Of a stretch of DNA of 29,340 bases, positions 8,937 through 26,944 are shown piece by piece. Every line of letters begins with the position of its first letter. The first letter of the stretch is position 1. Where the stretch lies: positions 1 to 29,340 of the IMG/VR virus record IMGVR_UViG_3300025086_000155. One strand, written 5' to 3'. The translations under genes and the position numbers were made by a program. This stretch comes from a virus. Under the pieces are notes generated by a model, which saw only the letters and a list, made by a program, of their open reading frames with translations, made no database searches and had not been told where the DNA came from.

Positions 8937-10574
8937 TTATATTGACGCACTCTCAATAATGTTTCTGTCTAAACTTTGTGCAGTCGTTACATCATTACTT
9001 ACTACAAACGCTTTTACTGGCTGTTGTTCTTTTTCGCCTATGGTTTGTGCTAACTGACTTTCAGGTGCAGCACCTACTACATTAAAAGATGGGGGGGTAG
9101 GTCTTGATGGTGCGGCTGAACCTCCACCACCTCCGCCTCCTGCGCTACCTATTTTTGATTTTGCAGCGTTTACTGCTGAAGCTATAGTCATTGCAATTCC
9201 TGCTGCTTGTGTGGCAAATAATGCTATTAATGGCACGTTTGCAGGTGGTGGTGCTGAAGACGCTGCCTTCATAAACCCTTTTGCCCCATCCACACCTGAC
9301 TCTGCCGCCGCCGCAGTAATTCTTCCAATAGTAGCTTTTGCACTTAATATCTGTTCCTTTAAAATTAATCCTTGTTTTAATAGAAAAATGGCTTTAGCTA
9401 TTTTGCTTTCTGAACCTGCTGCTGCCGCCACAGCATCCATAGAATCATAAATGCCTTGCCTTTTTTGTTCTTCTAATTCAATTAATTTTTGAGCATTTTC
9501 AATGGCTTTTTCATCTTTTTCCTTTTCTAAATCCGCCCTCTCCCTTTCAAGAGATATTTTATTTATTAGTTGCTCACTTCTAAAGCCTTCTATTTGTGCA
9601 AGTATTCCCTCTTTCTCTGCTTTTGCGTCAAGTAGTGCTATTTGGTTTTCGTCGTTATTGTTTTTGTCAAATTGTGCTTGTGCTGCTTCTATAACTGCAT
9701 CCGCATTAGCTAACATTAACCTTTCCTGTTCTTCTAAAACATCTGCAAGTTTACTGTTTGCCTCTACTCTTTCTGCAATAGTTTTTGTTTCGTCATCCCT
9801 AATCTGCCTTAGCTTTTCCGCTTCTCTATCTTTCTGTTCTAAGATTATTCTGTTTTGTGCTATACCTATTTCTGCCGCTCTGTTTAGTTCTACAGTTTCT
9901 TGTGCAGCTTTTAACGTGCTTTTGCCATACTCAGTAATTCCCTTTATTACAGAAGGCGCAACCTCTACAATCTTATCAAAAGTGTCTGGTACTCCAGTCA
10001 TAACATCTACCGCTTCCTTACCTGCGTTTTTTACCGCATCTAATGCACCTGTAAAATCCCCCTCAATAACTTTTTTAACTGCACTTGCCAAAAATCCCAA
10101 GGTGTCTAATAGACTATTAAACCTTTCTGTAATGTTATTATAAATAGCATTTCCAAAATCATATAAGGACTGGACTGGGTCATTAAAAATACTTTTAAAA
10201 TATCCTACAACAGTTCCTATATTAGCATTAAGAAAACTAAACAGGTCATTAAAGGCTAAACTTAAAGCCTCCATCCCTGTATTAAATATATCTACTATTT
10301 GTTGGTTTTGCCCAAACGTTTCCTTTAGCACATCAAAAGCCTTAACAACTAAATAAACTATTCCTGTTGTTTTGCCTATGTTTTTTATTGCAACACCAAA
10401 ACTTTTAAAACCTTTAGATGACTTGTCTGTGCTTTTCTTTAAGTCATCAATACTGCCCTGTAAGTTGTTTATTTCCTTGTCTTGTTGATTAACAATTTTT
10501 CCTAATTCAGATGCGTTCTTTGCAGCCTCCTTATACTTTAGTTCAAATTCAACACCTACTTTTTTGTATGCCAT
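8937..10574 (-). CDS. Tail tape-measure protein
   Basis: 545 aa. It is dominated by coiled coil (about 15-60 and 225-380, with long runs of Glu/Lys/Arg/Ala) and by hydrophobic helices in the middle (about 65-180). A Gly-rich linker (about 470-480) follows, then a conserved-looking tail with APESQLAQTIGEKEQQPVKA and FVVSNDVTTAQSLDRN. Long coiled coil, central hydrophobic segments and position between tail genes identify a tape measure that sets tail length and scaffolds tube polymerisation. The large open frame on the opposite strand (9502-10143) is a shadow of this sequence. Confidence 0.8.
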   Translation of the reverse strand: MAYKKVGVEFELKYKEAAKNASELGKIVNQQDKEINNLQGSIDDLKKSTDKSSKGFKSFGVAIKNIGKTTGIVYLVVKAFDVLKETFGQNQQIVDIFNTGMEALSLAFNDLFSFLNANIGTVVGYFKSIFNDPVQSLYDFGNAIYNNITERFNSLLDTLGFLASAVKKVIEGDFTGALDAVKNAGKEAVDVMTGVPDTFDKIVEVAPSVIKGITEYGKSTLKAAQETVELNRAAEIGIAQNRIILEQKDREAEKLRQIRDDETKTIAERVEANSKLADVLEEQERLMLANADAVIEAAQAQFDKNNNDENQIALLDAKAEKEGILAQIEGFRSEQLINKISLERERADLEKEKDEKAIENAQKLIELEEQKRQGIYDSMDAVAAAAGSESKIAKAIFLLKQGLILKEQILSAKATIGRITAAAAESGVDGAKGFMKAASSAPPPANVPLIALFATQAAGIAMTIASAVNAAKSKIGSAGGGGGGGSAAPSRPTPPSFNVVGAAPESQLAQTIGEKEQQPVKAFVVSNDVTTAQSLDRNIIESASI

Positions 10575-10711
10575 AACTCTGTCTTAAATATGTTGTATGC
10601 CTCTCTTACACTTTCAGGATATTTGTTTTTGCCTAATGCTATGGCAGTATATTGTCCTGATGTTTTGTTTTGTTTAGCTATTTCTAATAAGTTTAATATA
10701 TTTTCTATCAT
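10556..10711 (-). CDS. Small ORF between tail protein and tape measure (51 aa)
   Basis: Opens at ATG 10711, overlapping the preceding stop (ATGA), and closes at 10556, overlapping the tape-measure start by 19 bases. The peptide begins MIENILNLLEIAKQNKTSGQ and contains an acidic/amphipathic helix. It fills a gap that would otherwise be the only sizeable hole in the tail operon. Function unknown. Its position just ahead of the tape measure would suit a small assembly factor. Confidence 0.55.
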   Translation of the reverse strand: MIENILNLLEIAKQNKTSGQYTAIALGKNKYPESVREAYNIFKTELWHTKK

Positions 10712-12849
10712 ACTGTACCCTCCCAATCTACTGTTACGTTTGTGCTATCTACGGTTAAAAATCTTTTGTCTACTGTGTCAGCAAAATACTTGTCTTGGTT
10801 TTCTATTACAAAGTCGCTCACCTCGTTTATGAGTTCTAAGTCGCTTAAACCAGTTGCAAGGTTTGTGGTTATTTCGTTTATTTTATAAATCTTATCGAAT
10901 ATTATTAGTCTATCTGCTAATGAAAGGTTTAGTAATATCCTAAGTGGTAGGTATGCTTTAAATTTACTTAGCCTACGCTTTTGGTCAAATGTATCCCCTA
11001 TGTAATTACTGTAGTAAGTTTCAAATAGTGTGCTTTTAAATACTGTACCTGCATATTCATTAAACTCAGCCTTAAAGTTTATGTTTTGACTGTCTGTAAT
11101 ATCTACACTATTGGATGGTATGTAGTAATCTGTTATACCAACCCTATTAGACGATGTCTTTACTACACCTATTTGTGTACCACTTGTTATTTTCTTTGCA
11201 TAAAATATTAATGGTTTTCCTAGATACGTTTCTTGTTTTATATCTACTGACCAACCCCATTGTGCATCTGTTACGCTGCCATCATTATCTCTTAGTCTTT
11301 CAAACTTATGATGTTCAAAAGGCAATCTTAACTCAAATTTATCCCCCTCTGTATTGTAGACATCTTCGTAGTTTTCAGTACCCCACTCAACGTTGAATAG
11401 CTCCTTGTGGCTTTCGCTCAAGAAACTTTCCGTACCCTCATACCCAAATACAATACGCCTATATGGCATTAGTGCATCTACTGTAGAAGCGTTTGTATCT
11501 AAAAACTTTGTTATGTCAAAGCTATTTTTGCTTTGTTCATAAAACTCATCTAATGGCTTTACTTGTATAATACCATTTCTGTCTTGAAATGCAGTTAGAT
11601 TAAACATTTTAAACAACCCTGTAATAAAGCTTAGTATTTTCATATCAGGCAACTGCAAGGCTGCATTAAAATCTGAAACAGTTTCTACTTTTGCCCTCCC
11701 CTGTAACTCTATTGTTTTGTTGTCAGACCCTGCTAATATTTTAACCCATTCGTTTAGTGTAATTTCTAACTGAAATTCTGCTGCCGATTCGCTTTCAAAA
11801 TATATTCTATATGTGCCTGATGGATACTCAGCATCTTTGCTGCCACTACCTAATCTTTGTTCACCGTTTACACCGTCAAGTCTTTCGTATTCTTCTCCGT
11901 CTTTGTTTATTATTACGTTGTAGTTTTGTGCTTGGGTAATAACCTTAATATCATATCTTAGCCTAACATTATTAGGGTTTTTTGGTTGTCTAAAGAAAAA
12001 GCTTTCTGATGTAAACCTACCTGCCCAAGTAAATCTGTTATCGCTTGAACCAGACACACAACATAGCGTAGTCTTTGCTCTAATTTTATCGTCATCTAAT
12101 ACGCCTCCCTCTTTCCTATGTAACCACAAATACAAATTGTAAAACGTAGGATTGTCTTTGTTGAAGAAATCACCACTAAACTTTAATCCGTATTTATCCT
12201 CTATTGCTTTTATTAAAGCATATATTCTAATAGCAGGTTTTAATTGTTCATACTTTACACCCTGTATAGTTCCTGCATCATAGGCTACGTTTCCGCTTTG
12301 GGCAACAGGAAGTGTTGAATCGTAATACAACCTTTGTGTGTGTGTAATCAATGGCACTATTAATGCATCAGTATATGAAACACCATTTACAGTTACGTCT
12401 AAACCATCCTGCATATAGGTTATCACGTTGTCAGAGTTGTAAGTAAACTCCATACCATAGATATTGTCTAATGCAGATAGCTTACTTTCTCCTAATAAGT
12501 CTTTAAGGTTTACGGTATCGCCTATAAATGTTAATCTATAAGTATGTGCCTTTGCCTGTTTAAGACTTACCCCTTCTAACCTTATTTTACCCTTTTTAAA
12601 AAACTGATGGTTTAAATATAGTTCAGCAGATTTTTTAGTGCCTGATACATATCCTGTAACATCAAAATTGTAAAAGTGTTTAAATAGCTTATTGTTTTCT
12701 TTACTTGCAGGTACGTTAAAGGTTTTAGTAAAGTCTGTAAATATCTTACTAATGTCTTTTACGTTTTGTAGTGTTTGGGTTAAGCTGACGCTTTCATCCT
12801 TAAACAATTCAACCTCTGTACCCTCTATGTAAAGTTGTAGGTTTAGCAT
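10708..12849 (-). CDS. Large tail structural protein (713 aa), distal tail/baseplate candidate
   Basis: 713 aa, with no transmembrane segment. The N-terminus (MLNLQLYIEGTEVELFKDES and KIFTDFTKTFNVPASKENN) is characteristic of a large virion protein that I recognise from siphophages of Flavobacteriia and Bacteroides, usually next to the tape measure. The body is beta-rich and contains several Cys near residues 265-270. No enzyme motif is visible. By size and place it is the best candidate for the distal tail or tail-hub component. It is coupled to its neighbours on both sides by one- or four-base overlaps. Confidence 0.65.
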   Translation of the reverse strand: MLNLQLYIEGTEVELFKDESVSLTQTLQNVKDISKIFTDFTKTFNVPASKENNKLFKHFYNFDVTGYVSGTKKSAELYLNHQFFKKGKIRLEGVSLKQAKAHTYRLTFIGDTVNLKDLLGESKLSALDNIYGMEFTYNSDNVITYMQDGLDVTVNGVSYTDALIVPLITHTQRLYYDSTLPVAQSGNVAYDAGTIQGVKYEQLKPAIRIYALIKAIEDKYGLKFSGDFFNKDNPTFYNLYLWLHRKEGGVLDDDKIRAKTTLCCVSGSSDNRFTWAGRFTSESFFFRQPKNPNNVRLRYDIKVITQAQNYNVIINKDGEEYERLDGVNGEQRLGSGSKDAEYPSGTYRIYFESESAAEFQLEITLNEWVKILAGSDNKTIELQGRAKVETVSDFNAALQLPDMKILSFITGLFKMFNLTAFQDRNGIIQVKPLDEFYEQSKNSFDITKFLDTNASTVDALMPYRRIVFGYEGTESFLSESHKELFNVEWGTENYEDVYNTEGDKFELRLPFEHHKFERLRDNDGSVTDAQWGWSVDIKQETYLGKPLIFYAKKITSGTQIGVVKTSSNRVGITDYYIPSNSVDITDSQNINFKAEFNEYAGTVFKSTLFETYYSNYIGDTFDQKRRLSKFKAYLPLRILLNLSLADRLIIFDKIYKINEITTNLATGLSDLELINEVSDFVIENQDKYFADTVDKRFLTVDSTNVTVDWEGTV

Positions 12850-18489: not shown

Positions 18490-18781
18490 CGTACAAGGTA
18501 TAATACACAGTAAGTTCTTCGTTACCCTTTATTGGTTTAATCGTATATAAGCTACCTACCTTGCCCTTTTTAAGTATAAAGCAATTAGGTGTATCACTAT
18601 GGTTTAAAAAGCCTCCTAAGGGTGTTCTAATCAGTTCTTCCAAATAAGGGTTTATAGCGTCTACCCTGTGGTGTGTTATTCCTAACTCGTTTCCTGCTTC
18701 TATTTTTTCTGTTGCAAATACCCCAAGACCTTCTATTTTGCTTTTCTTTATAGTTAGTTCTTTTGGTAGTGGCTTATACAT
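18482..18781 (-). CDS. SET-domain protein (minimal lysine methyltransferase-like)
   Basis: 99 aa, the size of a minimal SET domain. Hallmarks are present in order: SKIEGLGVFATEKIEAGNEL (14-33) for the N-terminal SET strand, GGFLNHSDTPNC (56-67) for the N-H-S cofactor and active-site motif, and the C-terminal EELTVYYTLYD (88-98) containing the Tyr-rich catalytic end. SET proteins transfer methyl groups from S-adenosylmethionine to protein lysines. No target domain is attached. It overlaps the DnaA-like gene stop. Catalysis is inferred; a catalytically dead binding role cannot be excluded. Confidence 0.8.
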   Translation of the reverse strand: MYKPLPKELTIKKSKIEGLGVFATEKIEAGNELGITHHRVDAINPYLEELIRTPLGGFLNHSDTPNCFILKKGKVGSLYTIKPIKGNEELTVYYTLYDV

Positions 18782-19175
18782 TTATTAGTCTTTTAAGGTT
18801 TCTATGTTTTGTTTGTACGTCTCTTAGTTCTAAAAGTACCTTTGCGTATTTTCTTTTGTAGAAATCCCTACCTCTGTATTTTTGGTTCTCTCTTTTAAAC
18901 TCTCTGCTTACAAGTTTGTCTATTCTTTCGTAAGATTGGATGTATCTTTCTTCGTGTTGTTCTATCCAATCCCTGTAAAGTTTTAAACCGTGCAGTACAG
19001 TTGCGTGGTTTTTGTCTACTGATTTACCTATTACATCTAAAGAATGTAAAGTATATTCTCTGCACAAATTATAATACATTGCTCTTGTATATACTAACTC
19101 TGTTCTTCTTGATTTGTTGTTGAGTTCAATTCCTGTTTCTGTTTCTACTATTTCTTTAATCTTTTCTATTGTCAT
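18774..19175 (-). CDS. DnaA domain IV-like DNA-binding protein
   Basis: 133 aa. Residues about 20-68 match the DnaA C-terminal DNA-binding domain: RRTELVYTRAMYYNLCREYT, then SLDVIGKSVDKNHATVLHGL, including the signature K-N-H-A-T-V-L-H (55-62). In DnaA this helix-turn-helix binds origin DnaA boxes. The AAA+ ATPase part is absent, so this protein may bind DNA without ATPase control. The basic C-terminal half is coiled-coil-like. I infer a role at the phage origin or as a regulator of host DnaA boxes. Confidence 0.8.
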   Translation of the reverse strand: MTIEKIKEIVETETGIELNNKSRRTELVYTRAMYYNLCREYTLHSLDVIGKSVDKNHATVLHGLKLYRDWIEQHEERYIQSYERIDKLVSREFKRENQKYRGRDFYKRKYAKVLLELRDVQTKHRNLKRLINV

Positions 19176-19320
19176 ATTCTAATTCTTTTATTGCTTTTAA
19201 TATTCCTGCACAAGCCTCATAATCTTCTATGTCCTCGTACATTTTTAATGTTTGTTTTAATTCATCTAAACTAACACCATTTTGTATATCTAATAGTGCA
19301 AGTAAATAATATTCTTTCAT
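19156..19320 (-). CDS. Small helical ORF upstream of the DnaA-like gene (54 aa)
   Basis: ATG 19320 to TAA 19156. It begins MKEYYLLALLDIQNGVSLDE and is acidic and helical. It overlaps the DnaA-like gene start by 20 bases, arguing for coupled translation. Nothing further is visible. Function unknown. Confidence 0.5.
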   Translation of the reverse strand: MKEYYLLALLDIQNGVSLDELKQTLKMYEDIEDYEACAGILKAIKELEYDNRKD

Positions 19321-19356
19321 TTCATTATTCAAGACATTATAAATTATTTTTGTTTG

Positions 19357-19824
19357 CTATACACAAAGTAAGGGTTTTTGTGGGGAAACGCCTACCGTGT
19401 GATCTGATGCCAACCATCTACTTAATTGATTCTGCTTATGTATATATAACATCTTTGATTTATTCAGATCTAAATATTTTTTTACATCCTTTTGTATTTT
19501 ATCATTTTTAACAAATGGCGTAATTATAACATAGGGGTCTTTAACGTATGGATGACTTTCAAATAAAAACGAAGTTTGTGTTCTTCCGTAATTGTCAATT
19601 ACCCCTACATTTGAAGCGTATTCTCTCGCTTGGTTTAATGTTAGTTTTTTTCCTGTAAATTTAGAATCAGCGGAAACAACTTTAATTTCAGCAGTTATAT
19701 TAACTAAATCATCTGCAAATATAAAATCTTTATCACCTAAATACAATTGCTTATACCCATCGAAATAGTCGCTTACAACGCCATCAAAAAAAAGGTTGTA
19801 TTGGTTTGATAGTATTTTATCCAT
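19357..19824 (-). CDS. Unknown third protein of the TET/glycosyltransferase cassette (155 aa)
   Basis: 155 aa. It starts MDKILSNQYNLFFDGVVSDY, one base after the glycosyltransferase stop. A D-D (38-39) followed by E46-I-K48 in a strand context (FADDLVNITAEIKVV) resembles the D-x(n)-E-x-K core of PD-(D/E)XK nucleases, but I see no second supporting motif. The C-terminus has WLASDHTVGVSPQKP. The gene contains two GATC sites, unlike most of the phage, so it shares the foreign base composition of its two neighbours. Function unknown. Confidence 0.5.
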   Translation of the reverse strand: MDKILSNQYNLFFDGVVSDYFDGYKQLYLGDKDFIFADDLVNITAEIKVVSADSKFTGKKLTLNQAREYASNVGVIDNYGRTQTSFLFESHPYVKDPYVIITPFVKNDKIQKDVKKYLDLNKSKMLYIHKQNQLSRWLASDHTVGVSPQKPLLCV

Positions 19825-19825
19825 A

Positions 19826-20599
19826 TTAAAATAGTTTTATTTGATTCTTGTCCCCTGTTTTGTCCTTCAAACGTAGTTCTGCGTTTCCTGAAGATCTTCT
19901 TATATACATTGTACAATAGTCTGAAAAATTATCCTCAATCCACTTAATAGAGTTGTATATATATTCTTTTGTTCTAATGGTTTGTAACCCTCCTTCTTCT
20001 TTAAAAAATTTTGATTTAATTGTTATATAATCAAATCGAATAACTTTTTTATTTTTAATATACTGCCTTATGCTATATTCATAATCCTCACCGTGATTTG
20101 TCTCACGTTTTAAGAAATCATCGTGCTGAATAATTAAACCAAACACACCTCCTGGAATATAACATAGTTTTTTATAAATCCTGTTTAACATAAAATAGGG
20201 GTTAGCTGCAGCATAAACACCAAAAATAAAGCTTTTTTTATCAATACACTCCTGAAACCCCTTGATTATTAAGTCGCTTTCAAGATGATATATTTTTTGC
20301 AATTGATTTTCGTTTTTGACAAAAACACCGTCTAAATCATCATCAAACATCATTAGGTAAGTTCCCTCGTTATAGTAACGCTCAATAAAATTTCTTTGTT
20401 TTCCTATTGTTGGTACACCTACAACTATTTTGTATTCCGTCCCTAATGATTTTTTATATTCATACTCCTCATCAGTATTAGCCACAAAGACTGTAATCTT
20501 ATTTTTGTCTATTCCATATTCATTTAATAAACCTAAGGTTTTTTTCTTAATTGTTTCTGGTCTTTTATATGATGGTATTGCAATCTTATAATCTATCAT
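19826..20599 (-). CDS. TET-associated glycosyltransferase (GT-A fold)
   Basis: 257 aa. The N-terminal GT-A strand has IAIPSYKRPETIKKKTLGLL (6-25), then ITVFVANTDEEYEYKK (35-50) and a D-x-D-type motif DDD (86-88) inside MMFDDDLDGVF. The pattern (IPSYKRP, VFVAN, GVPTIGKQRNFI, then DDD) is that of the TET/JBP-associated glycosyltransferase group. Members are predicted to attach sugar to hydroxymethyl bases. It overlaps the dioxygenase gene by 4 bases. I infer transfer of a sugar from a nucleotide-sugar donor to oxidised base in phage DNA. Confidence 0.8.
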   Translation of the reverse strand: MIDYKIAIPSYKRPETIKKKTLGLLNEYGIDKNKITVFVANTDEEYEYKKSLGTEYKIVVGVPTIGKQRNFIERYYNEGTYLMMFDDDLDGVFVKNENQLQKIYHLESDLIIKGFQECIDKKSFIFGVYAAANPYFMLNRIYKKLCYIPGGVFGLIIQHDDFLKRETNHGEDYEYSIRQYIKNKKVIRFDYITIKSKFFKEEGGLQTIRTKEYIYNSIKWIEDNFSDYCTMYIRRSSGNAELRLKDKTGDKNQIKLF

Positions 20600-21474
20600 A
20601 GTCTTAAAAATCCTGTTTGATCCATTTTAATCCTTTCTAATTCTCCTGATGGTGATTTACATTTATACATATATTCTCTGTAATACATAACAAATGTAAT
20701 TCTTAACCAATCATCACTACAATCTGTAAAATCTGTATTTCCGTGCCACCTATGCACATCAACAAACAGGATATCTGTATTATGTAGATCTAATGCAACA
20801 CCGTATTCAGGCAAAACAAAATAGCCATTTTTATAATCGCCTTCACGATATATTATTAGGTTTCCAAAGCCTTCAGGATAATCGCCTGCGTCCTTATGTA
20901 CTGCGGTTTGAAAGTTACGATTTACTGTAACTGTTGTAAATGCAGTGTTATCTATAATATAGTTTTTATTTGTACCATCCGCAATAGCCCTTTGTTTTGC
21001 GTAATGTTCTGGACATAATTCCTTGTATTTTTTGTCTACATATTGTACAAACGGAATACCATCCCTGTACCTGTCAAAGTGCTCTTTTGCAAAGGCTGTT
21101 TTTCTACACACCGCAACGGTACCACCTCCTGGTCTAGCATCCATAAAACCAACGTTTCCACTTTCAACCTTTGGAGATACGTCAAATTTACCCTCTGTGC
21201 CATCTTTTCTTATTTGCTTATGATAACCACCTGCTGCAATTCCTCGTCCACCATTTAAAGTTATAGAATCCTTAAAGGCTAAATATCCAGATTTTAACAC
21301 ATCAAAGGGAATAGCATTTTTTCTAAACCTAAATAGTAGTTTTCCTGTGTTTTCATCGTATGCATCACAATCAAAATTAATTAATTTGTCCCAATGTTTT
21401 TTAGTTAAAAATGTCCCTTTTAATTTTGCACTTTGCTTGTCCGTTAATGTTTGCTTAAGCCTTATTGTCTCCAT
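20596..21474 (-). CDS. TET/JBP-family 2-oxoglutarate/Fe(II) dioxygenase
   Basis: 292 aa. The C-terminal half carries the double-stranded beta-helix signature in order: TTVTVNRNFQTAVHKDAGDY (180-199) with metal ligands H193 and D195; GFGNLIIYREGDYKNGYFVL; then DVHRWHGNT with ligand H244; then R258 in WLRITFVMYY, the expected 2-oxoglutarate anchor. This arrangement is that of TET/JBP enzymes, which hydroxylate 5-methylcytosine or thymine. The N-terminal 110 residues are family-specific. It overlaps the glycosyltransferase, giving an oxidise-then-glycosylate cassette. Substrate (5mC or T) is not decidable here. Confidence 0.85.
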   Translation of the reverse strand: METIRLKQTLTDKQSAKLKGTFLTKKHWDKLINFDCDAYDENTGKLLFRFRKNAIPFDVLKSGYLAFKDSITLNGGRGIAAGGYHKQIRKDGTEGKFDVSPKVESGNVGFMDARPGGGTVAVCRKTAFAKEHFDRYRDGIPFVQYVDKKYKELCPEHYAKQRAIADGTNKNYIIDNTAFTTVTVNRNFQTAVHKDAGDYPEGFGNLIIYREGDYKNGYFVLPEYGVALDLHNTDILFVDVHRWHGNTDFTDCSDDWLRITFVMYYREYMYKCKSPSGELERIKMDQTGFLRL

Positions 21475-21679
21475 AATTCCTATTTAATATTAATAGTAAA
21501 AAATCGCTTAAATTTCCTTTTTGTTGAAAGTCTTCTGCAAATTCCTTTTTAATACCAGCCCTGCAAAGTTTTTTAAATTCCTTTAACTCATCTGTACTAA
21601 AATACAGTATTGTGGTAGTTATTTCTGTGCTATCAATTGGGCTATTATCTATGCCCCACTCATCCTCAAACAACCTCAT
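21455..21679 (-). CDS. Hypothetical protein (74 aa) between exonuclease and TET
   Basis: 74 aa, starting MRLFEDEWGIDNSPIDSTEI. A Phe/Leu-rich helix (STDELKEFKKLCRAGIKKEF) is followed by a C-terminal DNLSDF-like helix (GNLSDFLLLILNRNYGDNKA). It overlaps the exonuclease-like gene stop and the dioxygenase start. No family recognised; possibly an accessory of either neighbour. Confidence 0.5.
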   Translation of the reverse strand: MRLFEDEWGIDNSPIDSTEITTTILYFSTDELKEFKKLCRAGIKKEFAEDFQQKGNLSDFLLLILNRNYGDNKA

Positions 21680-22440
21680 AGTATTCCACGCATTACATAC
21701 TGGTCTAAGTCATTGTCCTGCTCAAAAAAATATTTGTAATTTTCAATACCTTGTATAAATTTATTCTTACCACGTTCTAAAAACTCGTCTGTTACCTCAA
21801 ATATACCAATATCGCAGCTTGATTTGTCTACCACTAAAAAGGTAAACTTTGTGCAGTTAAACAATTGCATATACAGCCACGCCTGTAGATCATATCCATA
21901 TTTATCTGCCGACCATTTAAAAGAATTTAGGTCTGCTGTCGTTTTAAGGTCTATAAGGTGATCGCCTTTTAATATATCAGCCTTACCCCTTATTGCCAAA
22001 CCCTCCATCATTTCAATGGCAGGTACCTCAAAGTCTGCTTTGTTTAGTAGTTTAAGTGCAGCTTCGTTTCTTAATAATGAGTCAGTTAGACGTTCGGCTG
22101 CTTTTTTTTCTTTTTCTAAATATACCTCACCGTGTTCTTCCTTGGCGTGTTTGTAAACATTTGTATTGCGTGTACTTGCTTCTACAAAATGCAACTTGTC
22201 TAACTTTTGAGGTTCAAGGATCATACAATGAAATAATTTACCTGCTATTAGGGCAGGTGTTTCAGAGTCGCTACCATATTTAATTACGTTCCTGTATGTC
22301 TTTGGGCTTTTAAGTATTGTTTTAATACTGCTGCTGCTTAGGGCATATTTACCCAAGTGTCCATAATAGAAATCATCGTCTACCATTTGGGTTAGTATTT
22401 CATCCCTGCCCCAATGCTCTCCGTTTAATAATGTAATCAT
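21676..22440 (-). CDS. PD-(D/E)XK exonuclease-like protein (recombination)
   Basis: 254 aa. It has the exonuclease plan of the RecB/lambda-exo group: ALIAGKLFHCMILEP with H71, G-K-A-D155-I-L, then LIDLKTTAD with D164 and K166, and YGYDLQAWLYM with the Q-x3-Y type motif. This nuclease family resects DNA ends for single-strand annealing proteins, and the phage has an ERF protein at 26420-26944. It contains three GATC sites (21888, 21960, 22219) and so groups by composition with the TET cassette. Confidence 0.75.
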   Translation of the reverse strand: MITLLNGEHWGRDEILTQMVDDDFYYGHLGKYALSSSSIKTILKSPKTYRNVIKYGSDSETPALIAGKLFHCMILEPQKLDKLHFVEASTRNTNVYKHAKEEHGEVYLEKEKKAAERLTDSLLRNEAALKLLNKADFEVPAIEMMEGLAIRGKADILKGDHLIDLKTTADLNSFKWSADKYGYDLQAWLYMQLFNCTKFTFLVVDKSSCDIGIFEVTDEFLERGKNKFIQGIENYKYFFEQDNDLDQYVMRGIL

Positions 22441-23774: not shown

Positions 23775-24184
23775 AAGTACTCATTGTAAAGTTGTTCTAA
23801 CTTTTTATAAACACCATTCACAAAACAGGGTGAGCAGTTAGTGGGTTGTACGTTATCGCTGAAAACCCTGTTGTATATTTCTAACATCCTTTGCTGTTCG
23901 TCTGATAGTATTGTGCTTTTGCGGTTTACAAACTTCTCTTGTAAATACAAAAACTCATCCTCGTTTAAACACTCTGGTTTACGTCTTGGAAAAAGTTTGT
24001 TTAGTTTATCCTTACGGTCATCGCATCCACAGTCATCTCCTGCCAACCATTTAACAGCTTTCTTTATTCCTGTGGCTTTAGTAATCTTTTCTACAGTATC
24101 ACCTAACCCTTTACTTGCATTTTCGTGGTTCTTCTTCCACTCCTTAAACTCTTTGGTTCTTTTATCCCCCTTAAATTCTGTCAT
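23771..24184 (-). CDS. Cys-rich conserved phage protein (137 aa)
   Basis: 137 aa. It has a helical N-terminus (LGDTVEKITKATGIKKAVKW) and a D-D-C52-G-C54-D-D cluster. C72, C117 and C120 (TNCSPCFVNG) add a probable metal site or disulfides. I recognise this combination from hypothetical proteins of Flavobacteriia phages, but no function. It overlaps the sigma-like gene by 14 bases. Confidence 0.55.
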   Translation of the reverse strand: MTEFKGDKRTKEFKEWKKNHENASKGLGDTVEKITKATGIKKAVKWLAGDDCGCDDRKDKLNKLFPRRKPECLNEDEFLYLQEKFVNRKSTILSDEQQRMLEIYNRVFSDNVQPTNCSPCFVNGVYKKLEQLYNEYL

Positions 24185-24716
24185 AATCTTGATTTATATA
24201 GTCCTCGTAGTCCTCTTTAAATATTTCTTTTAATTCTTCCTTACACTTTTTTAGTGTGTTAAATATACTCACCCAACTTATATTGGTTTCTTCTGCTATT
24301 TTTCTAATGGACATATTTGTATCCCTGTACAATATAAATAGGGTTTTATCATACCACCTCCAACCCTCTATGTGATTGTCTATTTTCGTAGTAATTTCGT
24401 TATAGCCTATTTCGTCATCCATTTGCGAATCGTCCGCAATTTGCGTATAAATTTCTTCATCGTCAAGCTCAACTTTTTTAATTTTTTTCTTAGCATTACA
24501 ATACTGTAAAAAAATAGACCGAAGGGTGAAATAGCAATAGCCCCTGCTAACAACATCTTTCTCAATAATTTTTTCTTCACTTGCATATTTATTTAAAACA
24601 AGATACATTTCCTGTACTATATCATCTGCATAGTCGTACTCACCAAAAGAATGCACAATCCTAATCCACTCAATATGTCGTTCAGCTACTTTACCTAACC
24701 ATCCTGCCTCTCCCAT
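24171..24716 (-). CDS. Sigma factor-like (ECF/sigma-70 region 2 and 4) protein
   Basis: 181 aa. Region-2-like helix with DIVQEMYLVLNKY (32-44), then about 75 residues of acidic linker, then a C-terminal helix-turn-helix resembling region 4 (about 124-163) with FILYRDTNMSIRKIAEETNI and SWVSIFNTLKKCKEELKEIF. Length matches small ECF sigma factors. This predicts late-gene control by recruiting host RNA polymerase, but the promoter it would use was not found by me. Confidence 0.6.
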   Translation of the reverse strand: MGEAGWLGKVAERHIEWIRIVHSFGEYDYADDIVQEMYLVLNKYASEEKIIEKDVVSRGYCYFTLRSIFLQYCNAKKKIKKVELDDEEIYTQIADDSQMDDEIGYNEITTKIDNHIEGWRWYDKTLFILYRDTNMSIRKIAEETNISWVSIFNTLKKCKEELKEIFKEDYEDYINQDYDRI

Positions 24717-24952
24717 AATACGTTTACACTAATTATACCTAACAAACATTGTAAGGTGTATTCTGTAACGTTTTTATTGTTTTCTTGATATGTTTCATCG
24801 TGTACTAATGCCCCAACCATAAAACCTTTAATAGGGCTAATAATTATTTCACCATTTACTATAAATGCAATAACAATAAATATAAAAGCTATAATCATCA
24901 GCATTATAAATAAAGAAACTATGGGGTAGGAAAATATTTCGTTTGCATCCAT
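24695..24952 (-). CDS. Single-span membrane protein (85 aa)
   Basis: 85 aa with a long hydrophobic segment (about 9-32: IVSLFIMLMIIAFIFIVIAF), a Gly/Val patch and a mildly hydrophobic C-terminus. It lies between the helicase and the sigma-like gene, overlapping both (TAATG with the former). Role unknown; such early-region membrane proteins are often host-takeover or superinfection factors, which is speculation here. Confidence 0.55.
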   Translation of the reverse strand: MDANEIFSYPIVSLFIMLMIIAFIFIVIAFIVNGEIIISPIKGFMVGALVHDETYQENNKNVTEYTLQCLLGIISVNVLWERQDG

Positions 24953-25860
24953 TAGAATTGAATTGGTTTAAGTTGTTTTTTATGTAAAATGTTTTGACCC
25001 ATAAACTCAAAGCCCACATTATTTAAAGACATTCTAAGGCAAATAGGCTTTTCGTAAGGTGTACACCTACCGCCTGTTTCATTTTCTTTTACTTTTAAAA
25101 CGTGTAGATTACTATACATCCATTCTGTACTATGGCTAGTATATCTGTGAATACAAAGTACATCATCCGCTCGGTTTCCCCATTTACCTCCTCCTTCAAC
25201 ACCTGCTAAGCCTAAGGGCATTGGTAGGTTTTCGTATTCGTGTCCTTTTTGATGTGTTCGCCTTAATGACTCTGTTACTCCGTGTGCATTTAAATAAACA
25301 GTTACGTTTTTCTTTTTAGCAAATAACCTAAACTCGCTACTTACCTGGTAGTCATATTCGTGTCCCCCTACTGCTCTTAAAAGCTGATGGTCTTTTGCTA
25401 AACTATTGTAGGGGTCTATAAGTAAACCATCATAATCCCAAGCATCCTTAACTGCGTTAGCTTCTTTAAGTAAATCCTTATAAGTGTACAAGTCCTCAAC
25501 ATCAATAATTTTAAAATGATTATCACACCAAGCTACCGCTTCAGCTATTTGTTTTTCTTCTGCATTGTGTATTGGTACACCCATTTTAAACTCTATAATT
25601 TTCCTAACTATGCTTTGTGGTGTGTTTTCGCTTGACCAAATTAAAAACCTTAAATTGTGCTTTATTGCATACACGGTTAGTAAATAACATATAACAGTAG
25701 TTTTGCCTACGTTGGCGTGTCCTATTAAAAGGTTAAAATTTCCCTGCTTATATCGTACATACTCATCGATCTCCGGTATATCTATACCTAACCCCTCCTT
25801 AACCCTTCCATACTTAATATCAAGTATTTTGTTTTGTATTGTTTTGGTTTGTGCTATCAT
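24952..25860 (-). CDS. DnaB/RecA-fold replicative helicase-like ATPase
   Basis: 302 aa. Walker A GHANVGKTT (47-55), an Arg/Ser strand with WSSENTPQ where E78 is a candidate catalytic Glu, Walker B-type DYDGLLIDPYNSL (142-154) with D149, and LNAHGV as sensor. This is the DnaB/KaiC-type RecA fold without an N-terminal primase domain. It probably unwinds phage DNA for the host polymerase, because no polymerase or primase was found. Confidence 0.8.
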   Translation of the reverse strand: MIAQTKTIQNKILDIKYGRVKEGLGIDIPEIDEYVRYKQGNFNLLIGHANVGKTTVICYLLTVYAIKHNLRFLIWSSENTPQSIVRKIIEFKMGVPIHNAEEKQIAEAVAWCDNHFKIIDVEDLYTYKDLLKEANAVKDAWDYDGLLIDPYNSLAKDHQLLRAVGGHEYDYQVSSEFRLFAKKKNVTVYLNAHGVTESLRRTHQKGHEYENLPMPLGLAGVEGGGKWGNRADDVLCIHRYTSHSTEWMYSNLHVLKVKENETGGRCTPYEKPICLRMSLNNVGFEFMGQNILHKKQLKPIQF

Positions 25861-26419: not shown

Positions 26420-26944
26420 TTACACTTTTGCGAGTTCATCCTGCATTTTTTTACTGACCTTGTATTTAGATTTTATACTATCTAAATCACCTCCGCCTTT
26501 TAAATACTCAATGGCTTTACTAAACTCAGGTGTGTTTTGATTTAACCACCTTTTGTCTTCAGTAATAACAGATTTGCTACTTGCTAAATTACCATCGTCA
26601 TCTTCAGCCTGTAAACCTAATAAACTCGCAAGTGTATATCTACGATAATAGGTAATGGCTGACCCTAACTTTTGTGGGTCGTTAATGTCTGGCAATGTTA
26701 GACTGCTATCTACACTTCCTCCGTTATCTAAACAAAATATTCTACTTGTAACCATATTATCCATAATTGGCTGAATTAATAAAAGTTTGTGCTTAGCTAG
26801 TAATGGATTTAGTTGTTTAATAAGAGAATTTATATCAAAATATTTAGATTTATAAAATGGATTACTCGCATCCTTACTTACAGCACCTATTTCTTGCTGC
26901 AATTTAAATAGCTTATTATAAATGTTAGTTTCTTTTTTTATCAT
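26420..26944 (-). CDS. ERF-family single-strand annealing protein
   Basis: 174 aa. The hallmark LGSAITYYRRYTLASLLGLQ followed by AEDDDGN identifies the ERF superfamily; upstream lies an N-terminal helix with FKLQQEIGAVSKDASNPFYK. ERF proteins form rings that anneal complementary strands, promoting recombination and genome circularisation. The C-terminal 50 residues are a Lys/Asp-rich helix. The likely partners are the exonuclease-like protein (21676-22440), SSB and NinG. Confidence 0.9.
   Translation of the reverse strand: MIKKETNIYNKLFKLQQEIGAVSKDASNPFYKSKYFDINSLIKQLNPLLAKHKLLLIQPIMDNMVTSRIFCLDNGGSVDSSLTLPDINDPQKLGSAITYYRRYTLASLLGLQAEDDDGNLASSKSVITEDKRWLNQNTPEFSKAIEYLKGGGDLDSIKSKYKVSKKMQDELAKV

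Follow-up and report, generated by a model that had tools for sequence, protein, structure and literature searches.

Which base does a phage modify when it carries a TET/JBP dioxygenase gene next to that of a glycosyltransferase? The question is raised by a marine Bacteroidota phage whose virus record comprises 29,340 bases (IMG/VR IMGVR_UViG_3300025086_000155), all of which was analysed and is referred to below as the window. The record is classed as linear, so the genome is probably incomplete. Its minus-strand genes run from replication and recombination functions through a cassette to a DnaA C-terminal-like gene, a SET-domain gene and finally the terminase and structural genes (Table 1). 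In order of transcription the cassette comprises a gene for a 74-aa protein, the TET gene, the gene for a TET-associated glycosyltransferase (TAGT) and a gene for a 155-aa protein. The 133-aa protein encoded just upstream of the terminase genes has the DNA-binding C-terminal domain of DnaA (PF08299, 1.4e-12) without the ATPase domain, and this synteny is kept in the related contigs L104 and L142, among others. A SET-domain (lysine methyltransferase-type) gene is an uncommon find in a phage; the one adjoining the DnaA-like gene encodes 99 aa and matches PF00856 (4.6e-10) and PHROG 28741.

Table 1. Positions of the features discussed; coordinates refer to the window unless a contig is named.
Feature	Position	Strand	Remarks
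Erf-like gene	26420-26944	-	similar to P12024L gp19
DnaB-like ATPase gene	24952-25860	-	
Sigma-like gene	24171-24716	-	
DUF3799/ExoVIII-like nuclease gene	21676-22440	-	
74-aa protein, conserved first cassette gene in this clade	21455-21679	-	20-base overlap with TET start
TET/JBP 2-oxoglutarate/Fe(II) dioxygenase, 292 aa	20596-21474	-	PF12851, predicted fold, active-site residues
H193-K-D195, iron-binding motif of TET	20890-20898	-	invariant, 104/104 rows of tree alignment
H244, second iron-binding His of TET	20743-20745	-	invariant, 104/104 rows
R258, 2-oxoglutarate-binding Arg of TET	20701-20703	-	invariant, 104/104 rows
TAGT, GT-A type (predicted), 257 aa	19826-20599	-	PF20691; overlaps TET stop by 4 bases
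D86-D87-D88, DXD-type acidic motif of TAGT	20336-20344	-	D/S-D-D core recurs across TAGT ORFs of related loci
155-aa gene behind TAGT	19357-19824	-	D..E-x-K and Q-x3-Y motifs (9-member alignment)
DnaA C-terminal-like gene, 133 aa	18774-19175	-	PF08299
SET-domain gene, 99 aa	18482-18781	-	PF00856
GEN-Q-G-E-I-K family member, contig L104	10864-11337		
GEN-Q-G-E-I-K family member, contig L106	2372-2827		

The first-pass annotation had described a TET/JBP dioxygenase and a TAGT overlapping by 4 bases, and both minus-strand ORFs (292 and 257 aa) are present as described. The TET ORF matches the Pfam family Tet_JBP (PF12851) with E=1.3e-25 and 90 bits, well over the curated cut-off of 34.9, and the active-site residues named at the outset, H193, D195, H244 and R258, are correctly numbered and unchanged in every row of the tree alignment. 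Relatives are encoded in at least 188 IMG/VR stretches; together with the Pfam score, this indicates that the match is not due to chance. The AlphaFold model (mean pLDDT 79.9, from a 29-row alignment) is best matched among solved structures by TET2 (VIA Z 17.7), CMD1 (16.7), CcTET (14.7) and NgTET1 (14.2), over 211-257 residues with rmsd 3.5-4.8; other 2-oxoglutarate oxygenases (ALKBH, FTO) follow at Z 12.4 and below. The comparison with TET templates suggested by the first reading thus bears it out. The modelled protein is predicted to have a TET-type double-stranded beta-helix fold, an assignment that rests on the model because PDB sequence searches with the TET and glycosyltransferase queries gave no meaningful match. 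Enzymes of the 2-oxoglutarate oxygenase class are generally versatile, and instead of virion DNA this one might target RNA (e.g., m5U or m5C of tRNA) or, as a counter-defence, the DNA of the host. However, DNA-acting homologues top the fold matches and the TET is paired with DNA-modification modules, which makes such a role very improbable.

The second ORF matches the TAGT family PF20691 along the whole profile (1-205 of 205) with E=3.9e-16 and 60 bits (cut-off 27.5). It also matches PHROG 25200 (4.8e-37) and PHROG 842 (2e-18), the latter annotated as beta-glucosyl-HMC-alpha-glucosyltransferase. A GT-A fold is predicted from the Pfam match, and the DDD motif noted earlier corresponds to D86-D87-D88. 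Several related loci encode two glycosyltransferases behind one TET, either a tandem pair of TAGTs (L058, L086 and L089) or a GT32-like protein with a TAGT (L015 and L075), which suggests that a disaccharide is built or that there is a choice between two sugars.

The pair itself is of a known predicted kind, and the Pfam family is named for its association with TET. Iyer, Zhang, Burroughs and Aravind reportedly predicted TET/JBP-TAGT pairs in phages in 2013, with the same two families side by side as in the window. That prediction (Iyer et al. 2013) is cited in PMC9302106. The order of TET and TAGT is also the same in the mycobacteriophage Acadian (gp2-gp3) and the Arthrobacter phage Lilmac1015 (gp67-gp68). 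In the known pairs a ParB-like gene precedes TET, whereas in the window the 74-aa gene does. Unlike the known pairs, the window TET groups with those of Bacteroidota phages. Its best cultured relative, at 59.6% identity, is the TET of P12024L, a phage of Nonlabens (Flavobacteriaceae), in agreement with the flavobacterial-type phage proposed at first; P12024L encodes a TAGT (gp27) followed by a DPPY-type N6/N4 methylase (gp28).

The tailoring gene behind TET is not constant among the relatives. The neighbours of TET were classified at 105 loci, with glycosyltransferases at 79 and a P-loop kinase and/or a homologue of ADDT at 23; the remaining 3, whose contigs end soon after TET, were left unassigned. 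In phages with hypermodified thymine, ADDT serves as the amino acid:DNA transferase, and the same profile search (PF18724) found it in ViI, M6 and W-14. At least 11 changes of tailor, between TAGT glycosyltransferases and a P-loop kinase with or without ADDT, are counted on the TET tree. Even TETs that are 98.6% identical over 288-292 columns are accompanied by different tailors, a glycosyltransferase versus kinase/ADDT (L055 and L057 versus L053; L083 versus L092). Since near-identical TETs occur with either tailor, one TET product presumably serves both, the same intermediate feeding glycosyltransferase and kinase/ADDT alike. The window finds its closest parallel in the 33-kb contig L104, which is collinear with the window across the terminase, the tail genes and the 74-aa gene (62.5% for TerL, 62.7% for TET and 65.7% for the 74-aa gene) and has a companion gene, ADDT and kinase in place of the window's glycosyltransferase and 155-aa gene. 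Its ADDT was missed by Pfam hmmscan, but scores 84.5 bits in the PF18724 profile search and reaches 56% to the ADDT of L025 by BLAST. The window has no ADDT by profile search and no kinase-family ORF.

A longer contig of 61 kb, L044, also carries ADDT, a PLP enzyme and a kinase. It was dropped as the best long contig with TET, ADDT and kinase, and L104 used instead, since its TET is split in two frames, as overlapping ORFs at 9974-10865 that reflect a frameshift or a sequencing error. The otherwise collinear but TET-less contig L142 carries an N6/N4 methylase (DPPY) in the region of the window's TET-TAGT cassette (L142 3878-5073 compared with window 18774-21679); the cassette and the methylase seem to be alternative, mutually replacing DNA-modification modules.

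The alternation of tailors bears on whether the TAGT acts on DNA at all. Phage glycosyltransferases commonly have other acceptors, and the glycosyltransferase subtype varies widely between loci, as might be expected if TET modified DNA while its mere neighbour glycosylated a surface polysaccharide or a protein. Yet the two window genes overlap, the glycosyltransferase lies directly beside TET in most loci, the TAGT family is defined by its TET association, and the gene alternates in one slot with the DNA-acting ADDT and kinase. We consider an unrelated acceptor very unlikely.

If the cassette modifies DNA, the candidate substrates are thymine and 5mC. No C5-methyltransferase (PF00145) was found in the window, a 29.3-kb linear fragment, or in the complete genomes of P12024L, Acadian and Lilmac1015. 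The family occurs in 11 of 95 window and relative records, scattered on the TET tree, with at least 7 changes of state among those detected in the loci. Because it is so rare in the relatives, and missing from P12024L, 5mC would usually not be made by the phage itself in relatives of the window TET. The search for the thymidylate-synthase-type hmdUMP synthase (PF00303) found it in Montesquieu and in the established 5hmU phages ViI, M6 and W-14, but gave no match in the window, P12024L or 34 relative IMG contigs. L104 has neither enzyme. Zemanar, a mycobacteriophage with a complete 71-kb genome, begins with genes for a ParB-like protein, TET, ADDT and a kinase (PF18751, 3.3e-71), and it likewise lacks both PF00303 and a C5-methyltransferase, so TET is the sole visible source of 5hmU there. 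In Acadian the corresponding genes are ParB-like, TET and TAGT (6.5e-38). Oxidation of thymine is the simplest reading, since no other 5-methylpyrimidine is a constant component of DNA. A cluster of ParB, TET, aGPT-Pplase2 and 5hmU kinase was read as thymidine hypermodification in a published announcement (PMC11955845), and actinobacteriophage clusters of ParB, TET, pyrophosphorylase and kinase have already been read as nucleotide or thymidine hypermodification (PMC9302106, PMC11955845). Some records of these phages carry other names: gp2, the TET of NC_023701 and NC_042035 (L107 and L115), is called 'queuine tRNA-ribosyltransferase', and 'terminase small subunit' is the label given to Zemanar gp4 (Ploopntkinase3, 3.3e-71). 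Both mycobacteriophage names look like mis-annotations.

The main competitor of thymine is cytosine. A C5-methyltransferase outside the window fragment, of a family missed by PF00145, or of the host would make 5mC, TET would oxidise it to 5hmC and TAGT would glycosylate the product. The characterised phage TETs of Burke et al. 2021 (PNAS) are said to act on 5mC. PMC12730594 likewise cites phage TETs as acting on 5mC. The phage 5mC-TET systems (Burke et al. 2021) resemble the window in that a phage TET acts on a 5-methylpyrimidine of DNA together with glycosyltransferases, a function that is predicted in the window, but their defining co-occurring C5-methyltransferase was not found in the window fragment or most relatives. 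The 11 records with the enzyme are in favour of cytosine, as is the annotation of PHROG 842 as an HMC glucosyltransferase, and the gene may indeed lie beyond the ends of the window. A C5-methyltransferase accompanies kinase/ADDT in L025, L034 and L029, and in Melnitz it occurs together with TET and a kinase homologue; given the Melnitz case, the presence of a kinase is by itself no proof of thymine, and a cytosine version of the cassette with kinase may exist. A further point for cytosine, and with the incompleteness of the window the weightiest, is D198, three residues after the HxD motif, which resembles D234 of NgTET1 in spacing; D234 interacts with the 4-amino group of 5mC. The equivalent residue is N in the TETs of Zemanar and Acadian, which lack a C5-methyltransferase, and D in that of Melnitz, which carries an M.HhaI-like gene. 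Human TET2 also has N there, so this residue does not decide the substrate. The D234A variant of NgTET1 is inactive (PMC11404850). Against cytosine, the complete P12024L genome encodes TET and TAGT without a PF00145 match, its gp28 being of the N6/N4 type; among the 13 related IMG contigs of at least 25 kb, just 2 have a C5-methyltransferase; and the slot is also taken in turn by modules of thymine hypermodification. L044 also carries a divergent Cys-motif protein, a possible methyltransferase, but no homologue was found in the other 28 records searched. Overall, we regard the cytosine route as unlikely, though a serious contender.

It was originally proposed that this phage hypermodifies its genome by oxidation then glycosylation, with methylated bases as the implied substrate. 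The families, the operon and oxidation followed by glycosylation are supported, whereas the methylated-base part is the weaker half: thymine appears the likelier substrate because a C5-methyltransferase was not found in the window, P12024L or most relatives and enzymes of thymidine hypermodification occupy the same slot in close relatives. Granted that the cassette modifies virion DNA, we put thymine forward as the substrate with fair confidence. Hypermodification would be post-replicative. In the manner of the eukaryotic JBP enzymes, TET would convert thymine of the phage DNA into 5-hydroxymethyluracil by oxidising its 5-methyl group. TAGT would then attach a sugar, taken from a nucleotide-sugar, to the hydroxyl of 5hmU; the product, a glycosylated thymidine resembling base J, would shield the genome from host nucleases. 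We consider this account of the cassette, drawn from sequence comparison, reasonably probable. Elsewhere the same TET clade would feed other tailors, either glycosyltransferases or a kinase with or without the amino acid:DNA transferase.

The conserved unit extends beyond the TET-TAGT pair. In nearly all related loci a homologue of the 74-aa gene immediately precedes TET (gp25 in P12024L), and the TET-less L142 has no match to it. The 155-aa protein has motifs suggestive of a putative PD-(D/E)XK nuclease; its AlphaFold model is poor (pLDDT 35), no match was found in Pfam, PHROG or PDB, and none in phage records. It is kept as a nuclease candidate by its motifs, and its gene is not specific to the TET cassette, as 15 of the 30 viral loci that carry it are without TET. 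In many relatives TET and tailor are separated by a member of a second companion family (about 150 aa) with an invariant GEN-Q-G-E-I-K motif, of which the window has none. TET is present at 65 of the 71 loci with this family, which may be a cassette-specific nuclease of the PD-(D/E)XK type. Both families carry nuclease-like D/E-ExK motifs, and no profile link between them was found.

Two known pathways help to place the cassette. Thymidine hypermodification by 5hmU kinase and ADDT (ViI, M6 and W-14) resembles it in that relatives of the window carry ADDT and kinase in the glycosyltransferase slot, but there 5hmU is synthesised at the nucleotide level by a thymidylate-synthase homologue, which is absent here and which TET seems to replace. 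The base J pathway of kinetoplastids (JBP1/2 and JGT) shares the proposed logic, thymine being oxidised in DNA and then glycosylated; the window, however, belongs to a bacterial virus and has no J-binding domain, and TAGT is not known to be related to JGT. What is new is the evidence that this clade of Bacteroidota phages exchanges its sugar tailor for those of thymidine hypermodification with no C5-methyltransferase involved, which points to 5hmU made by TET and then glycosylated.

Existing isolates make the question testable, namely Nonlabens phage P12024L and the mycobacteriophages Acadian (TET and glycosyltransferase) and Zemanar (TET and ADDT) as a matched pair, and the cassette enzymes could serve in DNA labelling or protection. 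If thymine is the substrate, phages also use TET/JBP oxidation followed by glycosylation, the logic of base J, which would fit a descent of JBP from phages. It is about evenly balanced, in our judgement, whether Bacteroidota phages make base-J-type glycosylated thymidine via TET in an interchangeable cassette, with swappable tailors adding sugars, phosphate or amino-acid adducts so that close relatives would show host nucleases chemically different genomes. The swapping of sugar, kinase and ADDT genes behind near-identical TETs would also show how phages diversify their DNA chemistry quickly.
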